Below, one piece after another: positions 8,301 to 46,299 of a DNA stretch of 64,000 nt. The notes beneath the pieces are model-generated. The model saw only the letters and a program-made list of their open reading frames with translations. It did not search any database and had not been told where the DNA came from. Source of the stretch: Lachnospiraceae bacterium (GTDB lineage: Bacteria > Bacillota > Clostridia > Lachnospirales > Lachnospiraceae); NCBI GenBank assembly GCA_022768745.1, contig JALELK010000040.1, positions 1 to 64,000 on the forward strand, read 5' to 3'. The first letter of the stretch is position 1, and each line of letters starts with the position of its first letter. The translations under genes and the position numbers were made by a program.

Positions 8301-10552
8301 AGGAAAACAAGGACACAAAGATTAATTTTGCAGACACAAGTACCGGAATTGGAAAGCGGTTTCAGACCTACTTAAAGGGCGTGGAGGATTACGATATTCA
8401 GATGACCTTTATGTCCAACTATAGTCAGGATGCCAAGGTCTTATCCTTCAATAAGTACAGCAGTGATGCAAAGAAATGGACCGACTATCTGATGCAGTAT
8501 GATATGTTAATTCTGGGCTTTCAGGATATGGCAGAGTTTACAGATAATGAAGTGTTCTTAGCCGGATTTAAAGCCTTTGAAAAGGCTGGAAAAAGTGTGA
8601 TTTTAAGTCACGATATGGTATCGGATAAGAGTTTTGCCTATCCCACTGCCTACTTTAATTATGTCAATTGGAACTGGCAATACGAGGATAACGTGGATAC
8701 CTGCTGGGATTTAAATCAGGAGACTTCCGCATATTTGAGACAACTCAGTGGTCAGATGACCAAGAGTTTTTCTATGACACCGGATTTGAAATCCGCTTTT
8801 GGTTCCTATGCCAGAGTCTACAGCAGAGGAAAACAGGTGTCCTTGTTACCGAAAAGTGATTTACAGGTGGCATATTTGTATCGGTGGAAGAGCACCGGTC
8901 TTTTGTCCGGATATTGGGAATTCACAGATAGGGTCTCCGATGGCAAGAGAGACTGCTCTTGGATGACGGACAAGGATTACAAGTATAAAGTTCCGGGAAC
9001 AGGTGAATACATAGGTAACCTTATGGACAACAGTGTTCGGGTTATGACGTTTGCCTCCAGGGTAAAACCGGAAGACCGGGTGGACAGAGTTTTGACAAGT
9101 CCCAAAAATAATAATGCATCTGTGGATAAAAAGGAGTTAACCTGGCCGGACAGTGATTATACCAACACCGTAAAGGTGGCAAATCAAGGACAGATTACGG
9201 AATACCCATTTGCCATTGACGATACCATTTCTGTGGCAAATACCCATGCCCAGAATTACAAACTGAATCTGGAGGAAAACCAGGTTTCCCAGTTTGACCA
9301 GATGTTTGGTGTGGACGGAGACTATATGGAGTGGCAGGATGTACCAAAAACCGAGGTGACCTGGAACCAGTGGTCAAAGGATTTGAACTACGGTGCATTG
9401 GTTTACAGCGATGGTATGGCGTATGGTTATGCCCAGGTGAACGAGGCAAATTCAGCAGGAAGAAACGGAGGAGCGTTCCAGGCCATTAACCTTCAGGTGG
9501 ATACCCAGGATGGAAGAACCATTGACCACCAGTTGAAAATCTTTAGTGCGGATGAAAATGGAAATACCAATTTATATCCTCAGTTGGAGGGGCTGGCTCC
9601 CGGCAATTACGCTTTCTATGTGGGAAGCACCGGATTCAGCAGCCAAAATATTAATAACCTGAATAAAAACCCTTACTGGCATGATGATTATGTCTATGGA
9701 ACCATGAAGATGACCATCACCGACGGACCGGATACCATGGAGTACTCTCTGGATATGTCCTTGGTGGCAAAGTGGATGGGAATTGAAGTGGACGATATTA
9801 AGGATGTTACAGCCTGTGTATATGGTATGTCTTCTATGAATGATTCGCCGCCGCGATTCTCCACAAAAGACACCCAGGACTATGTAAATAATCTGGGTAA
9901 GGCAAGTGGCGGAGACGCCATCGTATGGTTTAATCTGTCAAACGATGGGGATGATGCTACCAATATATACTCTGCTAAGGATGGAGACAGCGCCAATAAC
10001 TATTACATTTACACCAAGGGTAATATTACCTACACCGGGTTTGGACATGCCAATGATATGACCAATGATGAGATACGTCTGTTTATTAACACCATGATTA
10101 GTGCCTATCGCTCCACTCCGGCGGCGCCTTATGTGACTGTGGAGAATGAGGATGTGATTAACAACGGCTCTATCAGTACTCTTTATACAGAAGAGAGAGA
10201 AGAGGGTCAGGATAAGGAAGTGTTACTGAAGGTCAATGATGATTCCAAAACCACCAAAGCAGGCACTACCTATCGCATGAAAATCACATTGAAAAATAAG
10301 AATGTGGAAGGATTAAAGACCGTAGACGGAAATGATGTGCCAAAGAATGCTGACGGCACCTATACCGTGCAAAAGGGAGCCGAATATAAACTGTTAGCTC
10401 CTTACGGGGATGCAAATACAGAGAATACCATTGCCTATGACGGCAAACTGACTTACAAGGTAAGTCTGACAACTACATATGCAGACGGCACCGAGCAGGA
10501 TGCACAAAGAACTGTGCGGGTTATGCTTATGCCATTATTCGGACTGGACTGA
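5306..10552 (+). CDS. Very large exported DUF5057-like protein of the pilus operon
   Basis: The product has 1748 residues. A basic N-terminus and hydrophobic segment (about residues 6-22) form a signal peptide or anchor, and the mature part is rich in Asp, Asn, Tyr and Thr, as in secreted proteins. A segment after the signal (about residues 48-80, with a Leu-Glu-Ile-Val-Pro-Asn core) matches my memory of DUF5057 proteins of Clostridia. An Asp/Asn/Gly-rich loop near residues 892-904 resembles calcium-binding loops, and the last 150 residues look like immunoglobulin-like beta domains. I see no LPXTG sortase signal. Its coupling to minor pilins suggests a pilus-tip adhesin or carbohydrate-binding protein; this is inference. 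Confidence 0.6.
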   Translation: MSKTRRNTLVVLGLLLGLTLAGMYKGGALGVGTAATPEKITYQTKNTEESLGTKENPFTVLEIVPNKKMAAVGYLFSGSEPVDISKNTAAMLAYQKVYGDYDETAGTYGDKGIADVSMTDYCTFASDFPKDLGYGASEENKVSNAAEDKLHFGQYGYFEHAAGTEGSYKYVPAEGETSGYFAPIAEGEVLGENQATYTWVPLVNFEQTIDNQAPESALGTYFLTGNRYTNQGYDTTDDNNEFYGFEEGTSENPFFGVPVVSDVEKYYPENNEALTISVEEIGTNKDVPQSRYYQYRYEEFYHTYARYEIAHKNQWVKSLFPAVEKPEEFVTQVVTATPEQLKGENISGEHNIIVDADMVVIHDSKVAIPINICTEETPDTSFDQTFDGHDMEGDCFNALIHRQASGNPAMMLMDESAMAKAGTNLGKLYAVLDNVGAKYYYNVYCNSQETGEDNKPLWMAEKNPDAAENASIYQLPAKTGYFTGSSSYVLNWDGSDDFLTKNIGEIVTLTGEGDVTVSSAMSKMYDATCSRKYDAGDGTYSAIKTSLTILELEPIAEFYYGNEGWRSYYMDLLPKDFVGTSTNIADDVKVTTMATYEFNGKVEDLNSTYDMIVVGAKQNETNGLVTNGKGGYNDKNLNNYDKKGKLVSALAYSTIGDLVSTDDGEVYFSDYDRFKKVCNFDRPERFAQDNKHWIAGRIDAWTKNADDTVAQSASFIGSNKGSDIAQAQIRYNATDITQKKYKELLDFSVENLIVIDGFLYNDGKDVDDTVADSSSFIYSLAKIGTVAWDKKENKVVKYADAISSAVSDYDSMVLESRCDLVFSREPNETLAEQGQQGKPVEYSYQVADEGKKTIDKSTIRNNNQTDENGNNVLRYHFTLQGQKGAKYRVSLGIDNNGNGDFSDDETTEDLYILDTTAGVLENTTIDQSQGGYLETGHSYMVVRKLPSSEKGMLPWKLKVYNEQVQSIRYIEKGYTRIPGANPTVIKVLQMNLTSDDDMKENKDTKINFADTSTGIGKRFQTYLKGVEDYDIQMTFMSNYSQDAKVLSFNKYSSDAKKWTDYLMQYDMLILGFQDMAEFTDNEVFLAGFKAFEKAGKSVILSHDMVSDKSFAYPTAYFNYVNWNWQYEDNVDTCWDLNQETSAYLRQLSGQMTKSFSMTPDLKSAFGSYARVYSRGKQVSLLPKSDLQVAYLYRWKSTGLLSGYWEFTDRVSDGKRDCSWMTDKDYKYKVPGTGEYIGNLMDNSVRVMTFASRVKPEDRVDRVLTSPKNNNASVDKKELTWPDSDYTNTVKVANQGQITEYPFAIDDTISVANTHAQNYKLNLEENQVSQFDQMFGVDGDYMEWQDVPKTEVTWNQWSKDLNYGALVYSDGMAYGYAQVNEANSAGRNGGAFQAINLQVDTQDGRTIDHQLKIFSADENGNTNLYPQLEGLAPGNYAFYVGSTGFSSQNINNLNKNPYWHDDYVYGTMKMTITDGPDTMEYSLDMSLVAKWMGIEVDDIKDVTACVYGMSSMNDSPPRFSTKDTQDYVNNLGKASGGDAIVWFNLSNDGDDATNIYSAKDGDSANNYYIYTKGNITYTGFGHANDMTNDEIRLFINTMISAYRSTPAAPYVTVENEDVINNGSISTLYTEEREEGQDKEVLLKVNDDSKTTKAGTTYRMKITLKNKNVEGLKTVDGNDVPKNADGTYTVQKGAEYKLLAPYGDANTENTIAYDGKLTYKVSLTTTYADGTEQDAQRTVRVMLMPLFGLD

Positions 10553-36556: not shown

Positions 36557-37333
36557 ATGAGTACAGAAACAAATGATGCCAAGATTCTTGCTGTGGCAGG
36601 CAAGGGTGGTGTCGGAAAAACATCCCTTGCAGCGGTTATGGTGAAGCTTTTGGTAGCAGCGTATCCGGATAAGAGGATATTGGCTATTGATGCGGATCCG
36701 GCAGTGGGACTCTCCACAGCCTTGGGGGTGGATGTGAAGATGACCGTGGACGACATCCGAAAGGAAGTTGTGGCCAATGCAGAAGATGGAGATGCCAAAG
36801 CAGCGATTGAGCTTTTAGGAGAAGCCAGATATCAGATTATGGATGCTTTAGTGGAGATGGACGGATTTTCTTTCATTGCCATTGGACGTCCGGAGGCAGC
36901 AGGATGTTATTGCAAGATTAACAGCTACCTCAAGGAAGTGATTGGTATTTTAGCAGCCAATTATGACTATATTGTTATTGACGGGGAAGCAGGAATTGAA
37001 CAGATTAACCGTCGTGTAATGGAGAAAGTTACACATTTATTGTTGATTACAGATTCCAGCAAAAAGGGAACACAGGTAGTACAGACGATAAAGAAAGTCG
37101 CAGATGAACTTGTGATGTATGACAAGGTGGGGGCCATTGCCAATCGTTTGCCTGATTTAGGAGTTAAGGAATATATGGATTTGGGAGATATACCGGTTCT
37201 TTCGTATATCTTATCGGACGCATCTCTGGCAGAGTTTGATTTAAAGGGAGACAGCGTCTTTTATCTTGATGATAATGCAACAATCGTTCAGGGAGCCAGG
37301 GAAGCCCTGATTAAGATCGGAATATTAGAGTAA
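36557..37333 (+). CDS. CooC/AcsF-like P-loop ATPase (nickel-site maturation type)
   Basis: The 258-residue protein is a MinD/SIMIBI-class ATPase. Its deviant Walker A, Gly-Lys-Gly-Gly-Val-Gly-Lys-Thr, spans residues 15-22, and an [15 protein letters not shown] motif near 47-51 is the Walker A' region. This pattern is typical of CooC and AcsF, which load nickel into CO dehydrogenase and acetyl-CoA synthase, and also of the related NifH-like and ArsA-like ATPases. A Cys-Tyr-Cys (CXC) motif near residues 117-119 could be the metal-binding site seen at the CooC dimer interface. It leads a cluster that also holds an ACS-like protein and a HypA-like protein, so a nickel-linked role is plausible. 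Confidence 0.75.
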   Translation: MSTETNDAKILAVAGKGGVGKTSLAAVMVKLLVAAYPDKRILAIDADPAVGLSTALGVDVKMTVDDIRKEVVANAEDGDAKAAIELLGEARYQIMDALVEMDGFSFIAIGRPEAAGCYCKINSYLKEVIGILAANYDYIVIDGEAGIEQINRRVMEKVTHLLLITDSSKKGTQVVQTIKKVADELVMYDKVGAIANRLPDLGVKEYMDLGDIPVLSYILSDASLAEFDLKGDSVFYLDDNATIVQGAREALIKIGILE

Positions 37334-37346
37334 AAGGGGGAACAAG

Positions 37347-38543
37347 ATGAAAGATTTAAAGCATTTGTATTTCTTTGAAAAGCTTTTGGAAGAGGCCAAT
37401 AATGACCTGATTCGTCAAGCTCAGTCAGAGGGAAAGAAATGTGTGGCTACCACCTGTGAAAACGTGCCGGAGCCACTACTGAATTTGCCGGGTACATTTT
37501 CTGTGCGACTTCGTGCACCTCGTACCGGTTCTATGGAGATGGCTACATATTATATGACCAGCTTTTTGTGCGAGTACTCCAGAGCACTTTTGGAGAGAGC
37601 CATTGAGGGTGGATTCAATTTTACGGATTGTATCATCACACCGGATGGTTGCACTATGATGAATCGTTGTGTGGAAAATATGGAGTTGCTCAAGACTATG
37701 GGACAGGGCAAGGAAAACTTTTTCTACGAGTACATGGAGATTCCGCAAAAGGGAGACCAGAATGGATTAGATCTTTATGTGTTACAGTGCCAGAATCATA
37801 TTTTAAATCCTTTAAAGGAGAAATTCGGCATTGATATTTCCGATGCAGCAGTTCGCAAGGCTGTGGAGGAGCACAATGAAGTCTGCCGCCTGATTCGTGA
37901 AATCGGAGACTTTAGAAAAGAGGAAAATCCTCGTATTACAGGTTATGAATATCACATTATTACCATGGCTACCTATGTAGCACCAAAGTATCTTTTGATT
38001 GACAAGTTAAAAGAGACTTTGGAGGAATTAAAAACCAGAGAGCCGGATGCAGAAAACAAGTTCCGTGCCAGGGTGGTATTTGTTGGTTCCGAAGTGGATG
38101 ATGTGGATGTAATTAAATTGGTGGAGGAATCCGGAGCATATGTATGCGCAGACCGTTTCTGCTATGGCTCTTTGCCGGGACGTGACGAGATTATCTTAAA
38201 TGATGATGAGGATGCGTTGACCCAGGTATGCCGTCAGTATCAGCAGAGAGGACAGTGCCCACGTTATTGGGATACACCAAAGGTTGTAGGCCGACGCAGT
38301 TATGTGGACCAGATTGCAAAGGAATATCACGCAGACGGAATCATTTATGAGCAGATGAAATTCTGTGATCCTTGGGCATATGAGAGAATGGTTGGTACCG
38401 TGGTATTACGAGATGAATACGGTTATCCGGTACTTGCTGTTGACAGACCTTACTCCATCGGAACTTCCGGTCAGATGCGTACCCGTGTACAGGCATTTGT
38501 GGAGAGCATTGAGATCAAGAAAATCCAGGGAGGTGTAAAATAA
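37347..38543 (+). CDS. 2-hydroxyacyl-CoA dehydratase-like / double-cubane protein, smaller subunit
   Basis: The 398-residue protein belongs to the HgdB/FldC/BcrC superfamily, which binds iron-sulfur clusters in two-domain subunits. Candidate cluster ligands are Cys37 (in a Cys-Glu-Asn-Val-Pro-Glu segment), Cys102 (in Asp-Gly-Cys) and Cys340 (in Lys-Phe-Cys-Asp), matching the three-Cys pattern of the family. True dehydratases make enoyl-CoA from amino-acid-derived hydroxyacyl-CoA, while double-cubane proteins reduce small molecules using the same activator. No CoA-transferase or acyl-CoA dehydrogenase is near, so the substrate is open. The stop codon shares a base with the start of the partner subunit. 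Confidence 0.8.
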   Translation: MKDLKHLYFFEKLLEEANNDLIRQAQSEGKKCVATTCENVPEPLLNLPGTFSVRLRAPRTGSMEMATYYMTSFLCEYSRALLERAIEGGFNFTDCIITPDGCTMMNRCVENMELLKTMGQGKENFFYEYMEIPQKGDQNGLDLYVLQCQNHILNPLKEKFGIDISDAAVRKAVEEHNEVCRLIREIGDFRKEENPRITGYEYHIITMATYVAPKYLLIDKLKETLEELKTREPDAENKFRARVVFVGSEVDDVDVIKLVEESGAYVCADRFCYGSLPGRDEIILNDDEDALTQVCRQYQQRGQCPRYWDTPKVVGRRSYVDQIAKEYHADGIIYEQMKFCDPWAYERMVGTVVLRDEYGYPVLAVDRPYSIGTSGQMRTRVQAFVESIEIKKIQGGVK

Positions 38544-40105
38544 TGGCAAAAGAAATTGGAAAAGACAGATTAGGCGATTTTTTCACCACCGGAAAGGTTA
38601 GAAAGCGCCGTGAATGGCGTGGATTTAAAGATACCTGGTATGATTACACTAGATGGCTTTATATTATGAAACAGCTGGCAGGATTTTTGGTAAAGCCGAG
38701 AAATATTAAGGCCATGTTCCGTTATCGCTGGATGGTGAACTACCTGGCAGTGCCTATGATGGTAGATAAGCACACCCAGGGACTTCGCGGACCATATCTT
38801 AGAATCTGCCACTTAGAGCAGGATTTGGTTGTGTATGATGTGGCTAAGCTTTTGGATAATCTGTTCCGTGGCGACCGCCGTATCGGCAATGACAAGGCAT
38901 TCTCAGACAAGGTTGTCCTGGTGGATGAAAATGAGATGACAGCAGTTATGATGGGATTTCCGACTTTGAAGGGACTCAGTCGTGAGACTCCATCTACCTA
39001 TGTTGCGGTTCTCTTGAATCAGACAGCAGCCCTTCATTATATTGATGTGGCACAGGAGTACGGACTTCCCGGAGATGTGTGTCCTATGCCTGAGGCAGAA
39101 GCCGGACTTTCTATTGATGATGATGCACCTATTTTGGGAGCTTGTGCAGTTCAGTGTAATACGACTTGTGATGGTTCTCTGATGGGAAATGGAGTTATCT
39201 CCAAGAGATTGGAATTAGAGGATGGAATCCCGGTATTCCAGCTGGCAGCACCTCTTCGTCACAGAGAGGATGATGTGCAGGAATATGCAGCACAGGAAAT
39301 CAGAAATGCCATCGCATTTATCGAGGAACACACCGGAGAGAAATGGGATTGGAAATATTACTTTGAATGTGCAAAACGTGTCAATGAATCCACCCGTCAT
39401 CGTATGGACTGGTTGGATATGAACAAAACCGATTACCCACAGGTATTTGGTTCCAACCTTGCTCTTTACACAGAGACCAACTATATGGCTATCTGCGGAA
39501 AGGTACCTGAGTTCGTAGAGGTTGACCGCAAGATTTCTGCTTTGGCAGAAAAGGCATACAAAGACAAGATGATGATGGCAAAAGAATATCGTCATCGTGC
39601 CATTGTCTGGGGTGTGCAGTCACACTTCTATATGGACTTTTTGCTCTGGTTGTTAAACTGCTGGGGAATCGTTCCACTTACCGATATGCTTTCTATGGTT
39701 AATACAGATATGATTGCTGAGGAAGACACACCGGAAAACAGAGAGCAGGCATACTACGATATGGCTTGGCTGACAGAAAATATGATTATGAGAAACCGTA
39801 CTCACGGTGGATATAAGGTACTTTTGGATGCACTTTGGGAGTACTGCGAAGAGTTCAATGCAGACACGGTTATTCTTTGGGAGCATATGGCTTGTAAGGC
39901 TCTTGATGGTATGCATGGTCAGTTTGAGGAAAAGGCCAGAGAACATGGTATCCATTTAATTTGGGTAACCCACGATTTGTTTGATCCCCGTATCGTTTCC
40001 CGTCAGGGCATCAGAGATCAGGTAAACCGTTATATGAGAACAGTATTCCATGAGGAGCCGTTGGATCCTTCTCTGGAAGTTTTACCGGACGATCATTCTT
40101 GGTAA
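38543..40105 (+). CDS. 2-hydroxyacyl-CoA dehydratase-like protein, larger subunit
   Basis: The 520-residue protein is a divergent member of the same superfamily as its neighbour. A Cys-rich stretch near residues 180-215 (Cys-Pro-Met-Pro, then several Cys including Gln-Cys-Asn-Thr-Thr-Cys-Asp) and a late Ala-Cys-Lys segment near 453 would supply cluster ligands. The last 70 residues (Arg-Asp-Gln-Val-Asn-Arg-Tyr region) recall the end of HgdA-type subunits. It is longer than typical subunits (about 380-430 residues) because of an extended N-terminal region with several aromatic and basic residues. It probably forms a heterodimer with the 398-residue protein. Confidence 0.72.
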   Translation: MAKEIGKDRLGDFFTTGKVRKRREWRGFKDTWYDYTRWLYIMKQLAGFLVKPRNIKAMFRYRWMVNYLAVPMMVDKHTQGLRGPYLRICHLEQDLVVYDVAKLLDNLFRGDRRIGNDKAFSDKVVLVDENEMTAVMMGFPTLKGLSRETPSTYVAVLLNQTAALHYIDVAQEYGLPGDVCPMPEAEAGLSIDDDAPILGACAVQCNTTCDGSLMGNGVISKRLELEDGIPVFQLAAPLRHREDDVQEYAAQEIRNAIAFIEEHTGEKWDWKYYFECAKRVNESTRHRMDWLDMNKTDYPQVFGSNLALYTETNYMAICGKVPEFVEVDRKISALAEKAYKDKMMMAKEYRHRAIVWGVQSHFYMDFLLWLLNCWGIVPLTDMLSMVNTDMIAEEDTPENREQAYYDMAWLTENMIMRNRTHGGYKVLLDALWEYCEEFNADTVILWEHMACKALDGMHGQFEEKAREHGIHLIWVTHDLFDPRIVSRQGIRDQVNRYMRTVFHEEPLDPSLEVLPDDHSW

Positions 40106-40143
40106 AAACGTTGGAGATTAGATAAAGTAAGGAGTGTATGAAA

Positions 40144-40941
40144 ATGAAATATTATGGTGGATGTGATTCGGGAAGTACATTTACAAAATGCGTTATCATC
40201 GACGAAACAGGCAAGATGGTAGCAGATGTGACTCTTCGTTCCCGCATCAATGCGGTACTCAGTTGCGAGGAGTCAATCAAAGAGGCAATTGCACAGGTGC
40301 CTGACTTAAACAGTGCAGAGGATTTGGATTATCTGGTGGGAACAGGATACGGACGTAACAAGGTTCCTTTCGCAGATGAAAACATTTCAGAGATTAGCTG
40401 CCACGCTATGGGTGTTCACATTGCTGACCCAAGCGTAAAGGCCATTATTGATATCGGTGGACAGGATGTCAAGGGTATTGCAGTAGATACCGACGGTACC
40501 GTTTTAAACTTTGCTATGAATGACAAATGCGCAGCCGGAACTGGACGTTTCTTTGAGGCGATGGCAAAGGCATTCGAGATGACACTGGATGATTTTTCCA
40601 AACTTTCTTTGAAGGCAAAGAACGTGATTCCGATTACAGCACAGTGTACCGTGTTTGCTGAGTCTGAGGTTATCTCCTTAGTAGGAGAAGGAAAGCCTAT
40701 GGATGAAATTGCAGCAGGTATTGAGCTTTCTGTTGCAAAGAGATGTTTTGTAATGTCAAAGAAGGCAGGTGCTGTGGATTCCATTACCTTGACCGGTGGA
40801 TGTGCGAAAAATGACGGCTTGAAGGAAGCCATCGAAAAGGTATTAAACTTAAAGGTTATCGACCTGCCGATTGACCCACAGTTGATGGGAGCCTTGGGAG
40901 CAGCAGAATTTGCCCGTCAAAAAGGTATGGCTAAAAAATAG
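40144..40941 (+). CDS. Acyl-CoA dehydratase activase-type ATPase
   Basis: The protein (265 residues from this start) is an ASKHA-fold ATPase of the HgdC/BcrA-type activator family. It opens with Gly-Cys-Asp-Ser-Gly-Ser-Thr, the phosphate-1 loop. The paired cluster ligands are in Lys-Cys-Ala-Ala-Gly-Thr-Gly and Gln-Cys-Thr-Val-Phe-Ala-Glu-Ser-Glu, and these two Cys bridge one [4Fe-4S] cluster between two subunits. ATP hydrolysis drives electrons at very low potential onto the partner protein. The ATG at 40144 is chosen because AAGGAG sits 9 nt upstream; the ATG at 40138 would leave only 3 nt. It serves the two proteins encoded just upstream. Confidence 0.9.
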   Translation: MKYYGGCDSGSTFTKCVIIDETGKMVADVTLRSRINAVLSCEESIKEAIAQVPDLNSAEDLDYLVGTGYGRNKVPFADENISEISCHAMGVHIADPSVKAIIDIGGQDVKGIAVDTDGTVLNFAMNDKCAAGTGRFFEAMAKAFEMTLDDFSKLSLKAKNVIPITAQCTVFAESEVISLVGEGKPMDEIAAGIELSVAKRCFVMSKKAGAVDSITLTGGCAKNDGLKEAIEKVLNLKVIDLPIDPQLMGALGAAEFARQKGMAKK

Positions 40942-40955
40942 AAAGAGGTGTTAAC

Positions 40956-41123
40956 ATGGCTACATTTTTACACGTATTATTGATTATTGCGATTGTGTTT
41001 GTCTGCTTATTTGTATTGAGTTTTATTGTATACTTCTTCAATCTTGATATGAAAATGCTGTCTCTCATCGAGCCATTGATGAACAAGCATTATGACAAAA
41101 TTGAGAGGGATAAGCACCTGTAA
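40956..41123 (+). CDS. Small single-pass membrane protein (55 aa)
   Basis: This short frame has a clear start (AAAGAGGTG about 7 nt before the ATG) and ends 2 nt before the next gene. The product begins with a hydrophobic helix (about residues 4-28, with Leu, Ile, Val and Phe) followed by a charged tail rich in Lys, Asp, Glu and His. The tight fit between coding neighbours shows that it is a real gene. It could anchor the redox complex to the membrane or assist a transporter; no homologue is recognised. Confidence 0.75.
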   Translation: MATFLHVLLIIAIVFVCLFVLSFIVYFFNLDMKMLSLIEPLMNKHYDKIERDKHL

Positions 41124-41125
41124 TT

Positions 41126-41842
41126 ATGAAATTATATGATGAAATCATAACAAACTGGGGCACTCTGATAGGTGAGTGCCCTGTAAAATCCTTGCCGGTT
41201 ACCGGAGAGGCTGTTTGGGAGGACGCAGGGAATTCCAACCTGATTCTCCGTTCGGACATGGCCTATGAATTGGGTGGAAGCACTGCTTCGTTGCCGGCAC
41301 TGGGGGGTACGGCAGTCACAGATGATGTGGATTTGGTTCCAAAGGACGAGATACTTTTGGTGGGACCGGATTTGCCGGAGATAAAGGGGGATGTCCCCTA
41401 TGCCAGACTGGCGGTGGCCAGAGTAAAAAGTCAGGAGATGGGCGAGGGAAACACGCTGTATAATGCCATTCGTAAAATCGAGTATGTCCGTTATCATGTG
41501 AGTCCAAAGGGATTTATGATGCGGGTATCGCCCCTTCACGAAAGGGAGAGCGTGAGAGTTTCCAGGGAGGCTTTGTCTCAGGGACTGGACTTTGAAAAAG
41601 TGGGAAATCTTATGTTGGAGAGTTTTCACAAAAACTCCAAGGTGGAAGCGGTGAAATTAATATTCATAACCCACCCGGATTTTCCATACAATGAATTAAA
41701 AAACGAAATCAGACAAGCAGAGAGAATCACAAAGACTATTGACCACATTTTAAAGAATGTGATGTCAGACTGCAAAACCTGTAGTTTGCAGGAAATTTGT
41801 GATGAAGTGGAAGGCCTGAGGGAGTTACACTTCAAACAATGA
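41126..41842 (+). CDS. Acetyl-CoA synthase (CdhC/AcsB)-like partial-domain protein
   Basis: The 238-residue protein resembles, from memory, the middle-to-late region of ACS that precedes the nickel A-cluster. The matching pattern is an aromatic/basic run, Gly-Phe-Met, an Arg-Val-Ser-Arg-Glu-Ala segment, the Gly-Asn-Leu region, then Lys-Leu-Ile-Phe-Ile-Thr. The C-terminus has Cys216, Cys219 and Cys225 (CX2CX5C), close to the CX2CX8C of the ACS A-cluster. It is far shorter than ACS (about 700 residues), so it is at most a domain. With CooC- and HypA-like genes nearby, a nickel or iron-sulfur site is likely. The similarity needs a profile search. Confidence 0.6.
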   Translation: MKLYDEIITNWGTLIGECPVKSLPVTGEAVWEDAGNSNLILRSDMAYELGGSTASLPALGGTAVTDDVDLVPKDEILLVGPDLPEIKGDVPYARLAVARVKSQEMGEGNTLYNAIRKIEYVRYHVSPKGFMMRVSPLHERESVRVSREALSQGLDFEKVGNLMLESFHKNSKVEAVKLIFITHPDFPYNELKNEIRQAERITKTIDHILKNVMSDCKTCSLQEICDEVEGLRELHFKQ

Positions 41843-41948: not shown

Positions 41949-44822
41949 ATGGACATGAACAAGTATAATGAGTGGCCTGCAAACCACAAGCATGATGCTG
42001 CGCCTAGTCAGGCAATTATCGACTTGGGCAAGAGAATCACAGATGTGGCTGGTCACATGATTGGGGGCGTGAAAGTCGAAGACCCTGAGTATTGGGGATT
42101 AGCTGAGATTATCACAGAAGAGATGGCTGAAGTTGGTCTCACAATGAAAAAGAGAGAGCACTACACCTTTGAACAGCTTTGCGATATGAACAAAGAGAAG
42201 GTTGCAAAGCTTGGTAAGGATGGTTTCCAGAAGCTTCTTGATGATATGAGCTACATCGGATTGTTGGAGTACGATTATGGTTATCACTATGATCACAATG
42301 GACGTACAGCTCCACAGTCAGAGCGCAGATACATCCTTCCTATGTTTGTACCGGGTTCTGCTGAGTTGTTTAACATGGAAGAGTTGGAGGACAGAAGCAA
42401 TCCTAGACTTGCAGATCATCCGGATGTGGCATCCTTCTTTGAGAGAATGACTTACCTTCCATTGGAAGGCATTACCCAGATGGTACCTCCAGGAGGTGCT
42501 GGTGTAGGTATGCACGTTATTCCGGTAGAGAAGGCTATCGAGATGGAAAATGAATCCATCGACATTGAGCATTTGTCATACTGGTTGGATAAGTACGAAG
42601 GACACATCGGTGTAGGTCGTTGCAGCTGTCGTGCTTCTCGTAAGGCAATCGGTGACGGATGTGCAGATGATGATTTCGCTTGGTGTATCGGTGTGGGGGA
42701 CTTCGCTGATTACTGTCGTGAGACAAACAAGGGTCATGACATTACCAAAGAAGAAGCACTTGCTATTTTAAAGAGAGCTGAGGACAATGGTTTTGTTCAT
42801 CAGATTACAAATATTGACGGTGAGAACAAGATTTTTGGTATCTGTAACTGTAACGTAGAGATTTGTAACGCTCTTCGTACATCACAGCTTTTCAACACAC
42901 CAAATATGTCACGTTCCGCTTATGTGGCACATGTTGACAAGGATAAGTGTGTGGCTTGTGGTCGATGCGTTGAGTACTGTCCTGCAGGTGCAACCAGATT
43001 AGGACAGAAGCTTTGCCAGAAGGATGGTACAGAAGTACAGTATCCAAAGCAGTTGCTTCCGGATCATGTTAAATGGGGCAAGGAATTCTACGATCCTGAT
43101 TATCGTGATAACAACCGTATCAATACACATAAGACCGGTACTGCACCATGTAAGACCGCTTGTCCTGCACATATCGCAGTACAGGGTTACTTAAAGAAAG
43201 CCGCACAGGGTGAATACACAGAGGCTTTGGCTTTGATTAAGAAGCAGAATCCATTCCCTGCAGTTTGCGGACATATCTGTAACCGTCGCTGCGAGGATGC
43301 ATGTACCCGCGGTACTATTGATGATCCAATCGCAATCGATGCAGTTAAGAGATTTATTGCAGAGAGAGATTTGAAGGCTGAGACAAGATACATCCCACCT
43401 GTTGTTATTCCTGCTAGTACATACAAGTCACGTTGGGATGAAAAGATTGCTATTATCGGTGGTGGCCCTGCAGGACTTTCCGCAGCATTCTTCCTTGCAG
43501 AAAAAGGATATTATCCAACTGTATTTGAGAAGAACGCTGAGCCAGGTGGTATGCTTCGCTATGGTATTCCTTCTTACAAATTGGAGAAGAACTTAATCGC
43601 AGCAGAAATCGATGTTATGAAGGAGATGGGCGTTGAGATTAAGACCGGTGTTGAAGTTGGTAAAGATATTACATTAGATGAATTGAGAGCACAGGGCTAC
43701 AAGGCATTCTACATTGCAATCGGATGTAGTGCGGGTCGTCGCCCTGGAGTTCCGGGAGATGACGCAGAAGGAACCTTTACTGCTATTGATTACTTGGCAG
43801 AGGCTAACTGCGGTGGCAAGGAATATAATGGTCGTGTCGTTGTTGTCGGTGGTGGTAATGTTGCTATCGATGCATCCAGAGTCAGCGCAAGAAATGGTGC
43901 TGCTGAAGTGACACAGCTTTGCCTTGAGTCTGAAAGTGAGATGCCTGCATCTGACGAAGAAGTAAGAGAAGCCGGAGAAGATGGCGTAACCATCAAGTGT
44001 GGTTGGGGACCAAAGGAAGTTTTGGTTACCGACGGAAAAGTTTCCGGTATTGTATTTAAGAAGTGTACACAGGTTAAGAACGCAGAGGGCAGATTTGATC
44101 CTCAGTACGATGAGAACGAGACAATTACCATCGAATGTGATAGAGTTATCTTTGCTGTAGGTCAGGCTTCTGTATGGGGCGACTTGTTAAAGAACGAGAA
44201 CGTTCAGTTCCGCGGACCTGCTTTGGTGGCAGACGGACTTACCTATCAGGTAGAAGGTGCTCCTGATTTGTTCGTAGGTGGTGATGTTTATACCGGACCT
44301 AAGTTTGCAATTGACGCAATTGCAGCCGGACATTGGGCATCTGAATCTCTTCACCGCTATGTACAGAACGGACATATGAAGATTGGACGTAACCGTTGGG
44401 AGTTCATTGAACTTGACAAGGACAACATCAATGTTGAGAGCTATGACAACTCATCCCGTCAGTCTCAGGGTGTAAATCCTGCTGTAAATCCAAAGGGATT
44501 CGAGGATGCAAGTCTTGCGCTCACCGAAGAGCAGGTTAAGACAGAGACCGCTCGCTGTCTTGGATGTGGTGCTACAATTATTGATGCTAACAAGTGTATC
44601 GGTTGTGGTGTATGTACAACCAAGTGTATGTTTGATGCGATTACTCTTAAGAGAGATAACCCGGCATGCTCAGAAATGACTGTGGCAGAAGACAAGTTCA
44701 AGAAGATTTTGCCATACGAATTGAAGAGAGCTGCAAAGATTGTATTCACTCCAAAGACTGCCGAAGAGAAGCGTCAGATTAAGGAATACAAAGAGGCTTA
44801 CGCAGCAAAAAATAATGAATAA
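41949..44822 (+). CDS. 957-residue ferredoxin-flavoprotein NAD(P)H oxidoreductase
   Basis: The order of domains is clear. An N-terminal region of about 220 residues begins winged-helix-like and leads to a Cys-rich stretch (Cys-Ser-Cys-Arg, then more Cys to about 310). A [4Fe-4S] motif CX2CX2CX3C is near residues 334-344. A GltD/NfnB-type cluster domain (Cys-Lys-Thr-Ala-Cys-Pro and three later Cys) spans about 400-450. The FAD site Gly-Gly-Gly-Pro-Ala-Gly is near 503 and the NAD(P) site Gly-Gly-Gly-Asn-Val-Ala near 634. A C-terminal 2[4Fe-4S]-like ferredoxin is near 866-890. It probably feeds electrons from NAD(P)H or ferredoxin to the ATP-driven partner proteins. Confidence 0.85.
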   Translation: MDMNKYNEWPANHKHDAAPSQAIIDLGKRITDVAGHMIGGVKVEDPEYWGLAEIITEEMAEVGLTMKKREHYTFEQLCDMNKEKVAKLGKDGFQKLLDDMSYIGLLEYDYGYHYDHNGRTAPQSERRYILPMFVPGSAELFNMEELEDRSNPRLADHPDVASFFERMTYLPLEGITQMVPPGGAGVGMHVIPVEKAIEMENESIDIEHLSYWLDKYEGHIGVGRCSCRASRKAIGDGCADDDFAWCIGVGDFADYCRETNKGHDITKEEALAILKRAEDNGFVHQITNIDGENKIFGICNCNVEICNALRTSQLFNTPNMSRSAYVAHVDKDKCVACGRCVEYCPAGATRLGQKLCQKDGTEVQYPKQLLPDHVKWGKEFYDPDYRDNNRINTHKTGTAPCKTACPAHIAVQGYLKKAAQGEYTEALALIKKQNPFPAVCGHICNRRCEDACTRGTIDDPIAIDAVKRFIAERDLKAETRYIPPVVIPASTYKSRWDEKIAIIGGGPAGLSAAFFLAEKGYYPTVFEKNAEPGGMLRYGIPSYKLEKNLIAAEIDVMKEMGVEIKTGVEVGKDITLDELRAQGYKAFYIAIGCSAGRRPGVPGDDAEGTFTAIDYLAEANCGGKEYNGRVVVVGGGNVAIDASRVSARNGAAEVTQLCLESESEMPASDEEVREAGEDGVTIKCGWGPKEVLVTDGKVSGIVFKKCTQVKNAEGRFDPQYDENETITIECDRVIFAVGQASVWGDLLKNENVQFRGPALVADGLTYQVEGAPDLFVGGDVYTGPKFAIDAIAAGHWASESLHRYVQNGHMKIGRNRWEFIELDKDNINVESYDNSSRQSQGVNPAVNPKGFEDASLALTEEQVKTETARCLGCGATIIDANKCIGCGVCTTKCMFDAITLKRDNPACSEMTVAEDKFKKILPYELKRAAKIVFTPKTAEEKRQIKEYKEAYAAKNNE

Positions 44823-44837
44823 AGGAACAGAAATTAC

Positions 44838-45260
44838 ATGCATGAATTAGGAATCGTATTTCACATTGCCAACACAGTGGAAAAACTGGCTGTGGAAAAC
44901 CATGTGAATCGAGTAAACAAAGTGACCCTTCAAGTGGGCGAAGTTTCAACAGTCATACCGGATTATCTGGTGGACTGTTGGAATTGGAAATGTACCAAGA
45001 GTGAGATTTTAAAGGATTGTAAGCTGGAGGTAGAGATGATTCCTGCTGTGACCTACTGTGAGGACTGTGAAAAGACTTATGGTACCGTGGAACACGGCAA
45101 GATTTGTCCATATTGCGGAAGCGAACATACCTATCTGGTACAGGGAAATGAGCACGCTATCAAGGAAATCGAAGTTTACAATGATGATGAGGCGGAGAGT
45201 ACACCTCACATCAGTGAAGAAGCAGACGGCTTGGAACGTCTGGAAGATCCTGAAGAATAA
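44838..45260 (+). CDS. HypA-like nickel metallochaperone
   Basis: The 140-residue protein starts Met-His-Glu, the family signature whose N-terminal amine and His2 bind nickel. Two CX2C pairs (Cys-Glu-Asp-Cys near residues 74-77 and Cys-Pro-Tyr-Cys near 92-95) form the zinc site. It is longer than a typical HypA (about 115) because of an acidic tail. HypA normally delivers nickel to NiFe hydrogenase or urease, but no such genes are visible. Its place at the end of the redox cluster suggests delivery to a nickel site there. Confidence 0.85.
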   Translation: MHELGIVFHIANTVEKLAVENHVNRVNKVTLQVGEVSTVIPDYLVDCWNWKCTKSEILKDCKLEVEMIPAVTYCEDCEKTYGTVEHGKICPYCGSEHTYLVQGNEHAIKEIEVYNDDEAESTPHISEEADGLERLEDPEE

Positions 45261-45316: not shown

Positions 45317-45712
45317 TTATTTCATCTTTTTCATAGCCTGTTCCATTTTGGCAGCAGCCTTTTTTAAAGCGTCAAAGCTTTCTTTACTAATCACATGCTC
45401 AATACGGCAGGCATCTTCGGAGGCAATCTCTGCAGGGACTCCCAGAGAAATCAAAGTCTCAGAAATCCATGTGTGTCTCTCATAAATCATCTCTGCAATT
45501 TCCCTTCCGGAATCTGTCAGATAGATGAATCCTGCATCGGTGACAGTGATGTGATTTTTCTCCCGGAGATTTTTCATTGCAATGCTGACGCTGGATTTTT
45601 TAAAGTCTAATTCATTGGCAATATCCACGGAGCGAACCACTGGTAATTTTTGACTGAGAACTAAGATAGTCTCCAAATAATTTTCGGCTGATTCATTGTT
45701 GGGTAATTTCAC
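45317..45712 (-). CDS. DtxR/MntR-type metal-dependent regulator
   Basis: The start is GTG at 45712, with a perfect AGGAGG (complement of 45720-45725) 7 nt upstream; the frame is open 15 codons further without a site. The 131 residues give an N-terminal winged helix-turn-helix (about 5-65) with Asn-Tyr-Leu-Glu-Thr-Ile, and a dimerisation/metal domain with Arg-His, Glu-Asp-Ala-Cys-Arg-Ile-Glu-His as candidate ligands. The short form without an SH3-like domain fits MntR-like or other divalent-metal sensors. It points toward the HypA-like gene and the redox cluster and may sense manganese, iron or nickel; the metal is not decided by sequence. Confidence 0.85.
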   Translation of the reverse strand: MKLPNNESAENYLETILVLSQKLPVVRSVDIANELDFKKSSVSIAMKNLREKNHITVTDAGFIYLTDSGREIAEMIYERHTWISETLISLGVPAEIASEDACRIEHVISKESFDALKKAAAKMEQAMKKMK

Positions 45713-45815
45713 GGAAAAACCTCCTAATAAATATGTAGTATATATAATATAACACAAAATGCCTTTTCTAGAAACCTTTTTATTATAAAGAGAGGCTTAT
45801 TCCCGAATATCCCCA

Positions 45816-45894: not shown

Positions 45895-46299
45895 ATGAAA
45901 GTATCTACAAAGGGGCGATATGCTCTTAGATTTATGATTGATTTGGCACAGAATAGTAACGGTCAGCCTATCAGAATTAAGGATGTGGCGAAACGTCAGG
46001 AAATCTCAGATAAATATTTGGAACAGGTGGTATCTCTTTTAAATAAGGCGAATTTTGTGAAAAGCGTCAGAGGTCCTCAGGGAGGATACACCCTTACCAG
46101 AGAGCCAAAGGATTACACGGTGGGAGAAATTCTTCGTATGACAGAAGGGGATATGGTTCCGGTTTCCTGTCTGGCAGGGGATACCAATAATTGCGAGCGG
46201 GCCAATGGATGCGTCACCTTAAAACTCTGGGAAAAATTAGACAATGCCATCAGCGATGTGATTGATAATACCACCTTAGAGGATTTGCTTGAAGAGTAA
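45895..46299 (+). CDS. Rrf2-family transcriptional regulator
   Basis: The 134-residue protein has a winged helix-turn-helix with the Lys-Gly-Arg-Tyr-Ala-Leu opening of the IscR/CymR group. Three Cys near residues 91-105 (Cys-Leu-Ala-Gly, then CX5C spacing) could bind an iron-sulfur cluster, as in IscR. Unlike usual contexts, no cysteine desulfurase or scaffold gene follows; a small Cys-tailed gene does. The ribosome binding site is AAAAAGGAG. Confidence 0.92.
   Translation: MKVSTKGRYALRFMIDLAQNSNGQPIRIKDVAKRQEISDKYLEQVVSLLNKANFVKSVRGPQGGYTLTREPKDYTVGEILRMTEGDMVPVSCLAGDTNNCERANGCVTLKLWEKLDNAISDVIDNTTLEDLLEE

Follow-up and report, generated by a model that had tools for sequence, protein, structure and literature searches.

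Why does a Lachnospiraceae bacterium carry, as a gene of its own, what looks like a fragment of acetyl-CoA synthase (ACS), and what might such a fragment do among the genes that surround it? The gene, here called ACSL (41126..41842, + strand), lies in a stretch of 64,000 nucleotides (positions 1 to 64,000 of contig JALELK010000040.1; hereafter the window). Its reading frame is intact, running from an ATG start over 238 residues and including Cys216, Cys219 and Cys225. It belongs to a tight run of genes on the same strand, which encode a CooC-like ATPase, the two subunits HGD1 and HGD2, an activase, a 55-residue protein, ACSL, a 957-residue oxidoreductase and HypA. Searches of an open-access literature library returned no description of this gene set.

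By sequence and predicted fold, ACSL is a reduced relative of ACS. Residues 40–184 match the Pfam family CdhC (PF03598; E 4e-6, 27.2 bits against a cut-off of 24), and this match is common to 50 of 52 ACSL homologues. The NCBIfam models of ACS are covered by ACSL only at model residues ~308–477 of ~705–710, which is the stretch that precedes the A-cluster. As a single sequence, ACSL has no relevant match in the PDB, and ACS structures are found only by a profile, built from nine homologues (E 1.8e-5). The family profile also picks up full-length ACS ORFs (~700 residues) in other genomes, with E-values from 1e-11 to 7e-4; it overlooks some full-length ACS, e.g. one in genome G032, so the counts of full ACS obtained with it are lower bounds. 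An AlphaFold2 model of ACSL built from 52 sequences has a mean pLDDT of 89, and the first 22 Foldseek matches of this model are all ACS. VIA-align superimposes its residues 26–210 on residues 315–496 of ACS (1oao_D) with a Z-score of 18.0 and an rmsd of 2.4 Å over 172 residues, against a Z-score of 3.3 for the best non-ACS chain. Because Pfam, the curated models, the profile and the predicted fold agree, the homology is firm. According to these comparisons, it is limited to the ACS middle domain (residues ~26–210) and the start of the A-cluster motif. The proposal of the sequence-only reading that the protein is a stand-alone domain resembling the region of ACS before the A-cluster is thus borne out, also by the structure prediction that it had suggested as a check.

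The C-terminal tail of ACSL has the pattern C216-x2-C219-x5-C225-x9-H235 (41771..41830, + strand) and is the counterpart of the C-x2-C-x8-C-x9-C motif of ACS. All three cysteines noticed in ACSL are retained without exception in 77 proteins (that of the window and those of 76 of 80 fetched loci, the remaining four having been dropped as the ORF caller missed the gene), so that the second objection named by the sequence-only reading, cysteines not kept among homologues, does not apply. The Cys motif is also present at all 29 additional stand-alone loci taken from whole genomes, which are partly the same genomes (27 of them at first reading). When ACSL is aligned together with 10 of the 28 full-length ACS sequences, its cysteines occupy the columns of the first three cubane cysteines of the A-cluster, and the ACSL tail is three residues shorter between the second and the third. 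On this alignment, the tail itself belongs to the A-cluster motif and does not just lie next to it. We take the A-cluster residues of ACS to be 506, 509, 518 and 528 (cubane cysteines) and 595 and 597 (the CGC motif), and Cys219 is presumably the counterpart of the ACS cysteine that bridges to nickel. Ten residues past the third cysteine, where ACS has its fourth, 76 of the 77 proteins have a histidine (one has a tyrosine), and so do 25 of 27 further ones, again partly from the same genomes (the exceptions are a valine in L107 and an arginine in L141, the deepest member). All 28 full-length ACS that were checked show C-x2-C-x8-C-x9-C plus CGC, whereas ACSL has C-x2-C-x5-C-x9-H in place of the four-cysteine motif and ends 13 residues past Cys225, so that the nickel-binding CGC and the rest of the A-cluster domain are absent. 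Therefore, nickel binding of the ACS type cannot be copied in ACSL. Residues 211–238 are modelled at low confidence (pLDDT 57–63).

A protein truncated in this way could be a decaying, functionless leftover of a lost CODH/ACS, and most carriers do indeed have no other part of CODH/ACS. The residues invariant in 77 of 77 proteins and the constant operon partners refute this explanation, which we consider hardly credible. Moreover, the frames of the stand-alone copies that were read are open; for G084 a stop was reported in the matched range, yet its ORF is open over 243 residues. A second suggestion, that ACSL is an ancestral form, is not supported, as the phylum sample contains one ACSL genome besides the window against 37 genomes with longer ACS-type ORFs only. 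This distribution fits a derived, patchily spread protein. A search of viral contigs for ACSL relatives found none, and a role in anti-phage defence was ruled out, since neither ACSL nor HGD1 nor HGD2 has a match in PADLOC. An ACSL fusion in L079 (a 571-residue ORF) was also discarded: by eye, its N-terminal extra part looks like the preceding gene read in the wrong frame.

ACSL and an ATP-driven double-cubane reductase are obligate partners, and this pairing is what is new about the locus. Among the 59 loci whose sequence extends 6 kb or more upstream of ACSL, CooC and the activase are each found in 58, and HGD1 and HGD2 each in 53. Where the ACSL contig carries no HGD genes (L038, L040, L055, L056, L058, L070 and L077), HGD2 is located elsewhere in the genome in seven cases out of seven, which rules out loss of the pair; HGD2 is present in 12 of 12 ACSL genomes tested. 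In three of those genomes inspected (L184, L186, L190), the relocated HGD2 adjoins HGD1. In a family sample of 397 genomes, with HGD2 scored at E below 1e-60, stand-alone ACSL occurs in 30 and HGD2 in 31: all 30 ACSL genomes have HGD2, as does one of the 367 others (Fisher p 2.8e-44, with genomes treated as unrelated). The lone genome with HGD2 and no ACSL (G378) is 87% complete, and its HGD2 is truncated. Gene order varies in L127 and L130 while the gene set stays the same. In the distant genome G581, HGD1, an HGD2-like gene, two activase genes, ACSL and CooC lie beside two acyl-CoA dehydrogenases. The 55-residue ORF that precedes ACSL (40956..41123, + strand) has a conserved FNLDMK motif, is found by tblastn in 75 of 80 loci and, judged by eye, is predicted to be a small single-pass membrane protein.

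Beyond this core, the ACSL neighbourhoods contain no constant substrate or target gene: the acyl-CoA dehydrogenases of G581 are a single case, and so is an OYE-type reductase encoded next to the cluster of G279. HGD1–HGD2 pairs also stand alone, apart from ACSL, CooC and the activase (L184, L185, L186, L187, L190), in L190 with a formate/nitrite transporter gene ~1.5 kb away. Several ACSL genomes (G279, G108, G265, G334, G261) have two or three HGD2 paralogues, and in G279 a second HGD1–HGD2 pair lies directly beside the ACSL operon (L188 6734-13748). In G581 (L170 13687-16186), two large helical-looking proteins adjoin HGD1, the 594-residue one being without a Pfam match. In the window, the operon is followed by a DtxR-type metal regulator identified with Pfam (45317-45757, − strand) and by a look-alike, judged by eye, of an Rrf2/IscR-type regulator (45895-46299, + strand); metal or Fe–S control of the operon is possible.

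What kind of reductase is it? HGD1 (398 residues, 37347..38543, + strand; PF06050, 5e-87) is a subunit of the 2-hydroxyacyl-CoA dehydratase/DCCP type, and a profile of it finds BzdN (8s02_B) as its nearest PDB match (3e-32), with DCCP also near. The six ligands of the [8Fe-9S] cluster in BzdN, given as C36, C73, C100, C263, C293 and C327 in PMC11971306, fall on HGD1 C37, C75, C102, C272, C304 and C340, all six in register. In the homologues these positions are Cys wherever a residue could be called. Compared with the named equivalogs, HGD1 scores 139.6 of 350 bits (double_cubane), 106.1 of 453.8 (BzdN) and 94 of 700 (HadC), and it is a member of none of the three. HGD2 (520 residues, 38543..40105, + strand; PF06050, 1e-33) is a BzdO-like partner subunit with a fold of the DCCP/HadB/BzdO type (Z-score 26.1 to DCCP). 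Its C180 and C209 align with BzdO, and its C451 aligns with MbdO; by inference from these alignments, C451 would correspond to C380 among the catalytic-cluster cysteines C95, C128 and C380 of BzdO. HGD2 has two extra conserved cysteines near the catalytic C209, C201 (58 of 60) and C205 (59 of 60), which in alignments are absent from DCCP and BzdO; by eye, C201 is seemingly not conserved in the HGD2-like protein of G581. Further conserved cysteines are C373 in HGD2 and C295 in HGD1. The ATP-dependent activase is of the HgdC/BadF type (267 residues, 40138..40941, + strand; PF01869, 2e-55) and matches the acyl-CoA dehydratase activase model TIGR00241 over its cut-off (3e-64). Judged by homology and modelling, HGD1, HGD2 and the activase are a BzdNO-like, ATP-driven low-potential reductase. 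Enzymes of the HGD family act on CoA esters. Viewed as a reductase, the operon encodes a BCR-I/HAD/DCCP variant; viewed as an ACS, it falls outside the class.

The reading we prefer, tentatively and as somewhat short of probable, is that an undescribed ATP-driven reductase, of the Fe–S or perhaps the Ni–Fe–S type, has ACSL as its metal-cluster subunit, to which CoA may also bind. This reading is supported by the fold, the Cys register, the pairing with HGD2, the retained HGD1 ligands and the metal site of CooC. The last of these bears on nickel. The CooC-type nickel-insertion ATPase (258 residues, 36557..37333, + strand) has both a deviant Walker motif and a CXC metal site. Its best PDB match is CooC1 of Carboxydothermus (3kje, 1e-14), in whose CYC motif C112 and C114 align with C117 and C119 of the ATPase. 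C117 and C119 are conserved in 59 of 59 CooC-like proteins. In CooC1, according to PMC6006190, C112 and C114 bind Zn, and Ni competes for the site. The ATPase shares 34.5% identity with a CooC that a relative encodes next to CODH, and no CODH over the cut-off was found in the window genome, which is 88% complete. CooC suggests nickel use, and in this respect the earlier idea that the neighbouring genes point to nickel is supported, with CooC and its CXC site kept in 58 of 59 loci. Of note, the canonical CODH/ACS clusters of Lachnospiraceae (L125 4780-10420; L126/L132, G030) contain two different CooC-type genes.

The same genes can be read with nickel left out of ACSL: it might be a subunit that simply transfers electrons through a [4Fe-4S] cluster or docks CoA, with CooC feeding C201/C205 of HGD2 or having drifted in function, and the whole would be an iron-only double-cubane reductase with an adaptor. 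The missing CGC, found in every full-length ACS checked, favours this explanation, as do the two extra HGD2 cysteines close to the catalytic site and the fact that HypA is accounted for by another gene (see below). It is difficult, however, to explain without nickel use why 58 of 59 loci, and the cluster of the distant G581 as well, should contain a CooC with its CXC site; in G581, moreover, C201 of HGD2 seems not to be kept. We consider this alternative unlikely, if a serious one.

The second gene that had been taken as a sign of nickel, HypA (44838..45260, + strand; PF01155, 5e-30), leads to a different neighbour. ACSL is followed by an NAD(P)H/FAD/[4Fe-4S] oxidoreductase of 957 residues (41949..44822, + strand), which by Pfam combines FAD/NAD and [4Fe-4S] domains and has two CxC motifs in a six-cysteine site (C225, C227, C246, C299, C301 and C306 of the oxidoreductase, all invariant). 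It thereby resembles IsrA, a putative isoprene reductase with such a CxC...CxC six-cysteine site, whose homologues are described in PMC10134865 as having HypA as a neighbour in 73% and HypB in 56% of cases. In our loci, HypB always accompanies the IsrA-like oxidoreductase (14 of 14), and HypA occurs with no IsrA-like gene nearby in only 4 of the 60 loci with 5 kb downstream (L038, L040, L055, L058). HypA thus probably serves the neighbouring oxidoreductase. Scored at E 1e-20 or better, the IsrA-like gene is present in 88 of the 397 family genomes, 24 of 30 with ACSL against 64 of 367 without (p 2.5e-12); it is a frequent neighbour, not an obligate one, six ACSL genomes having none. Since the IsrA-like oxidoreductase is a linked but separate module, HypA says little about nickel in ACSL, and this half of the nickel argument is withdrawn: apart from the four loci, HypA tracks the IsrA-like gene better.

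This linkage raises the possibility that the operon matures or reductively activates some other nickel enzyme, e.g. the adjacent IsrA-like oxidoreductase, much as methyl-CoM reductase of methanogens is activated by HgdC/double-cubane-like proteins. The enrichment of the IsrA-like gene among ACSL genomes and its position directly adjacent to ACSL in many loci would agree with such a role. Against it stand the six ACSL genomes without the gene, the 64 of 88 genomes in which it occurs without ACSL, the G581 locus, in which tblastn finds no IsrA-like gene, and the lack of any other constant target gene in the neighbourhoods. A maturation role therefore appears rather improbable.

Could the operon instead make acetyl-CoA? 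The parts are of the right kind (an ACS domain, CooC and a low-potential reductase), CODH over the family cut-off is missing from 25 of 30 ACSL genomes, and Ca. Galacturonibacter soehngenii, a Lachnospiraceae acetogen, is described in PMC7000372 as having CODH activity with CODH/ACS genes absent. Because of this report, we examined the idea that the operon is an alternative CODH/ACS, which would join CO2/CO and a methyl group into acetyl-CoA and explain acetogenesis in that organism. CODH over the cut-off is present in 5 of the 30 ACSL genomes, whereas CFeSP, a full ACS and a true AcsE are found in one alone, G030, leaving 29 without them; the other AcsE-like matches are mostly in ORFs of at least ~800 residues, as in MetH. 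G030 has two full-length ACS genes besides ACSL. G171, the genome matched to Ca. Galacturonibacter soehngenii, gives no ACSL match even when the threshold is relaxed to E 1 and is absent among the listed HGD2 matches, which largely refutes the idea for this organism and led us to reject the operon as its missing CODH/ACS. Given the partners absent from 29 of 30 carriers and the absence of ACSL from Ca. Galacturonibacter soehngenii, we regard an alternative CODH/ACS as very unlikely. G171 does encode an IsrA-like oxidoreductase (contig 5, ~8419-9246; 1.7e-35), which is a possible further candidate for the unexplained redox activities of that organism.

If ACSL is a metal-cluster subunit of the reductase, as we prefer to think, the system might work as follows. 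The HgdC-type activase would hydrolyse ATP and charge the double cubane of HGD1, which would store low-potential electrons on its [8Fe-9S] cluster and pass them on to HGD2, bearing a BzdO-type [4Fe-4S] site and two extra conserved cysteines. We infer that the ACSL tail binds a site-differentiated [4Fe-4S] cluster via C216, C219 and C225, perhaps together with H235, and that ACSL would dock on HGD1–HGD2 and take up electrons at this cluster. More speculatively, CooC could load nickel beside the ACSL cluster at C219, or at C201/C205 of HGD2, and the resulting Ni–Fe–S centre might reduce a small or CoA-linked substrate. As the ACS middle domain is reported to contact CoA (PMC12289521), ACSL might bind CoA itself or one of its esters. 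The boldest version of this scheme, improbable but worth stating, is that the operon represents an undescribed class of Ni–Fe–S enzyme, in which an A-cluster-derived Ni-[4Fe-4S] centre (Cys3His) on the 27-kDa ACSL is driven below ferredoxin potential by an ATP-fuelled [8Fe-9S] reductase. Its substrate would be CoA-linked or a one-carbon compound, and its hosts would be gut anaerobes, most of them lacking the carbonyl branch of the Wood–Ljungdahl pathway.

ACS is generally seen as an ancient enzyme that serves one purpose, in the Wood–Ljungdahl pathway. If the preferred reading is true, the ACS scaffold has been re-used in other redox chemistry, locked to a nitrogenase-like, ATP-driven double-cubane reductase, and the gut and rumen would contain a new enzyme system. 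The cultured carriers, which include Pseudobutyrivibrio, Butyrivibrio fibrisolvens 16/4 and Clostridium gasigenes, make this system testable. Acetogenesis should not be deduced from short CdhC matches in genomes of this kind.

Each part of the locus has a known relative from which it departs. ACSL shares with the middle domain of ACS (AcsB/CdhC) the predicted fold over residues 26–210, an R-[VI]-S-K-[DE]-A motif and the three cubane cysteines in register. Unlike ACS, it is 238 residues long instead of ~400 (archaeal) or ~710–730, has a different cubane spacing and no CGC nickel site, and occurs without CFeSP, full ACS and AcsE partners in all but one of 30 genomes. HGD1, HGD2 and the activase are similar to the class I benzoyl-CoA reductases BzdNO/MbdNO, to DCCP and to the 2-hydroxyacyl-CoA dehydratases in the six [8Fe-9S] ligands of HGD1, in the fold and three [4Fe-4S] cysteines of HGD2 and in the HgdC-type activase; they differ from BzdNO/MbdNO and DCCP in an N-terminal extension of HGD2, in C201/C205 and in their obligate ACSL partner and CooC, and from the double-cubane, BzdN and HadC equivalogs in scores far under the cut-offs. 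The CooC-like ATPase is like the CooC of CODH in its best PDB match, Walker motif and aligned CXC, but there is no CODH in the ACSL operon. Finally, the downstream genes resemble, by description, the IsrA operon (isrA, hypA, hypB) of Acetobacterium wieringae, with which they share an oxidoreductase with FAD/NAD and Fe–S domains, the CxC...CxC six-cysteine site, HypA and sometimes HypB; that operon, as far as its description in PMC10134865 goes, has no ACSL, CooC or HGD genes.
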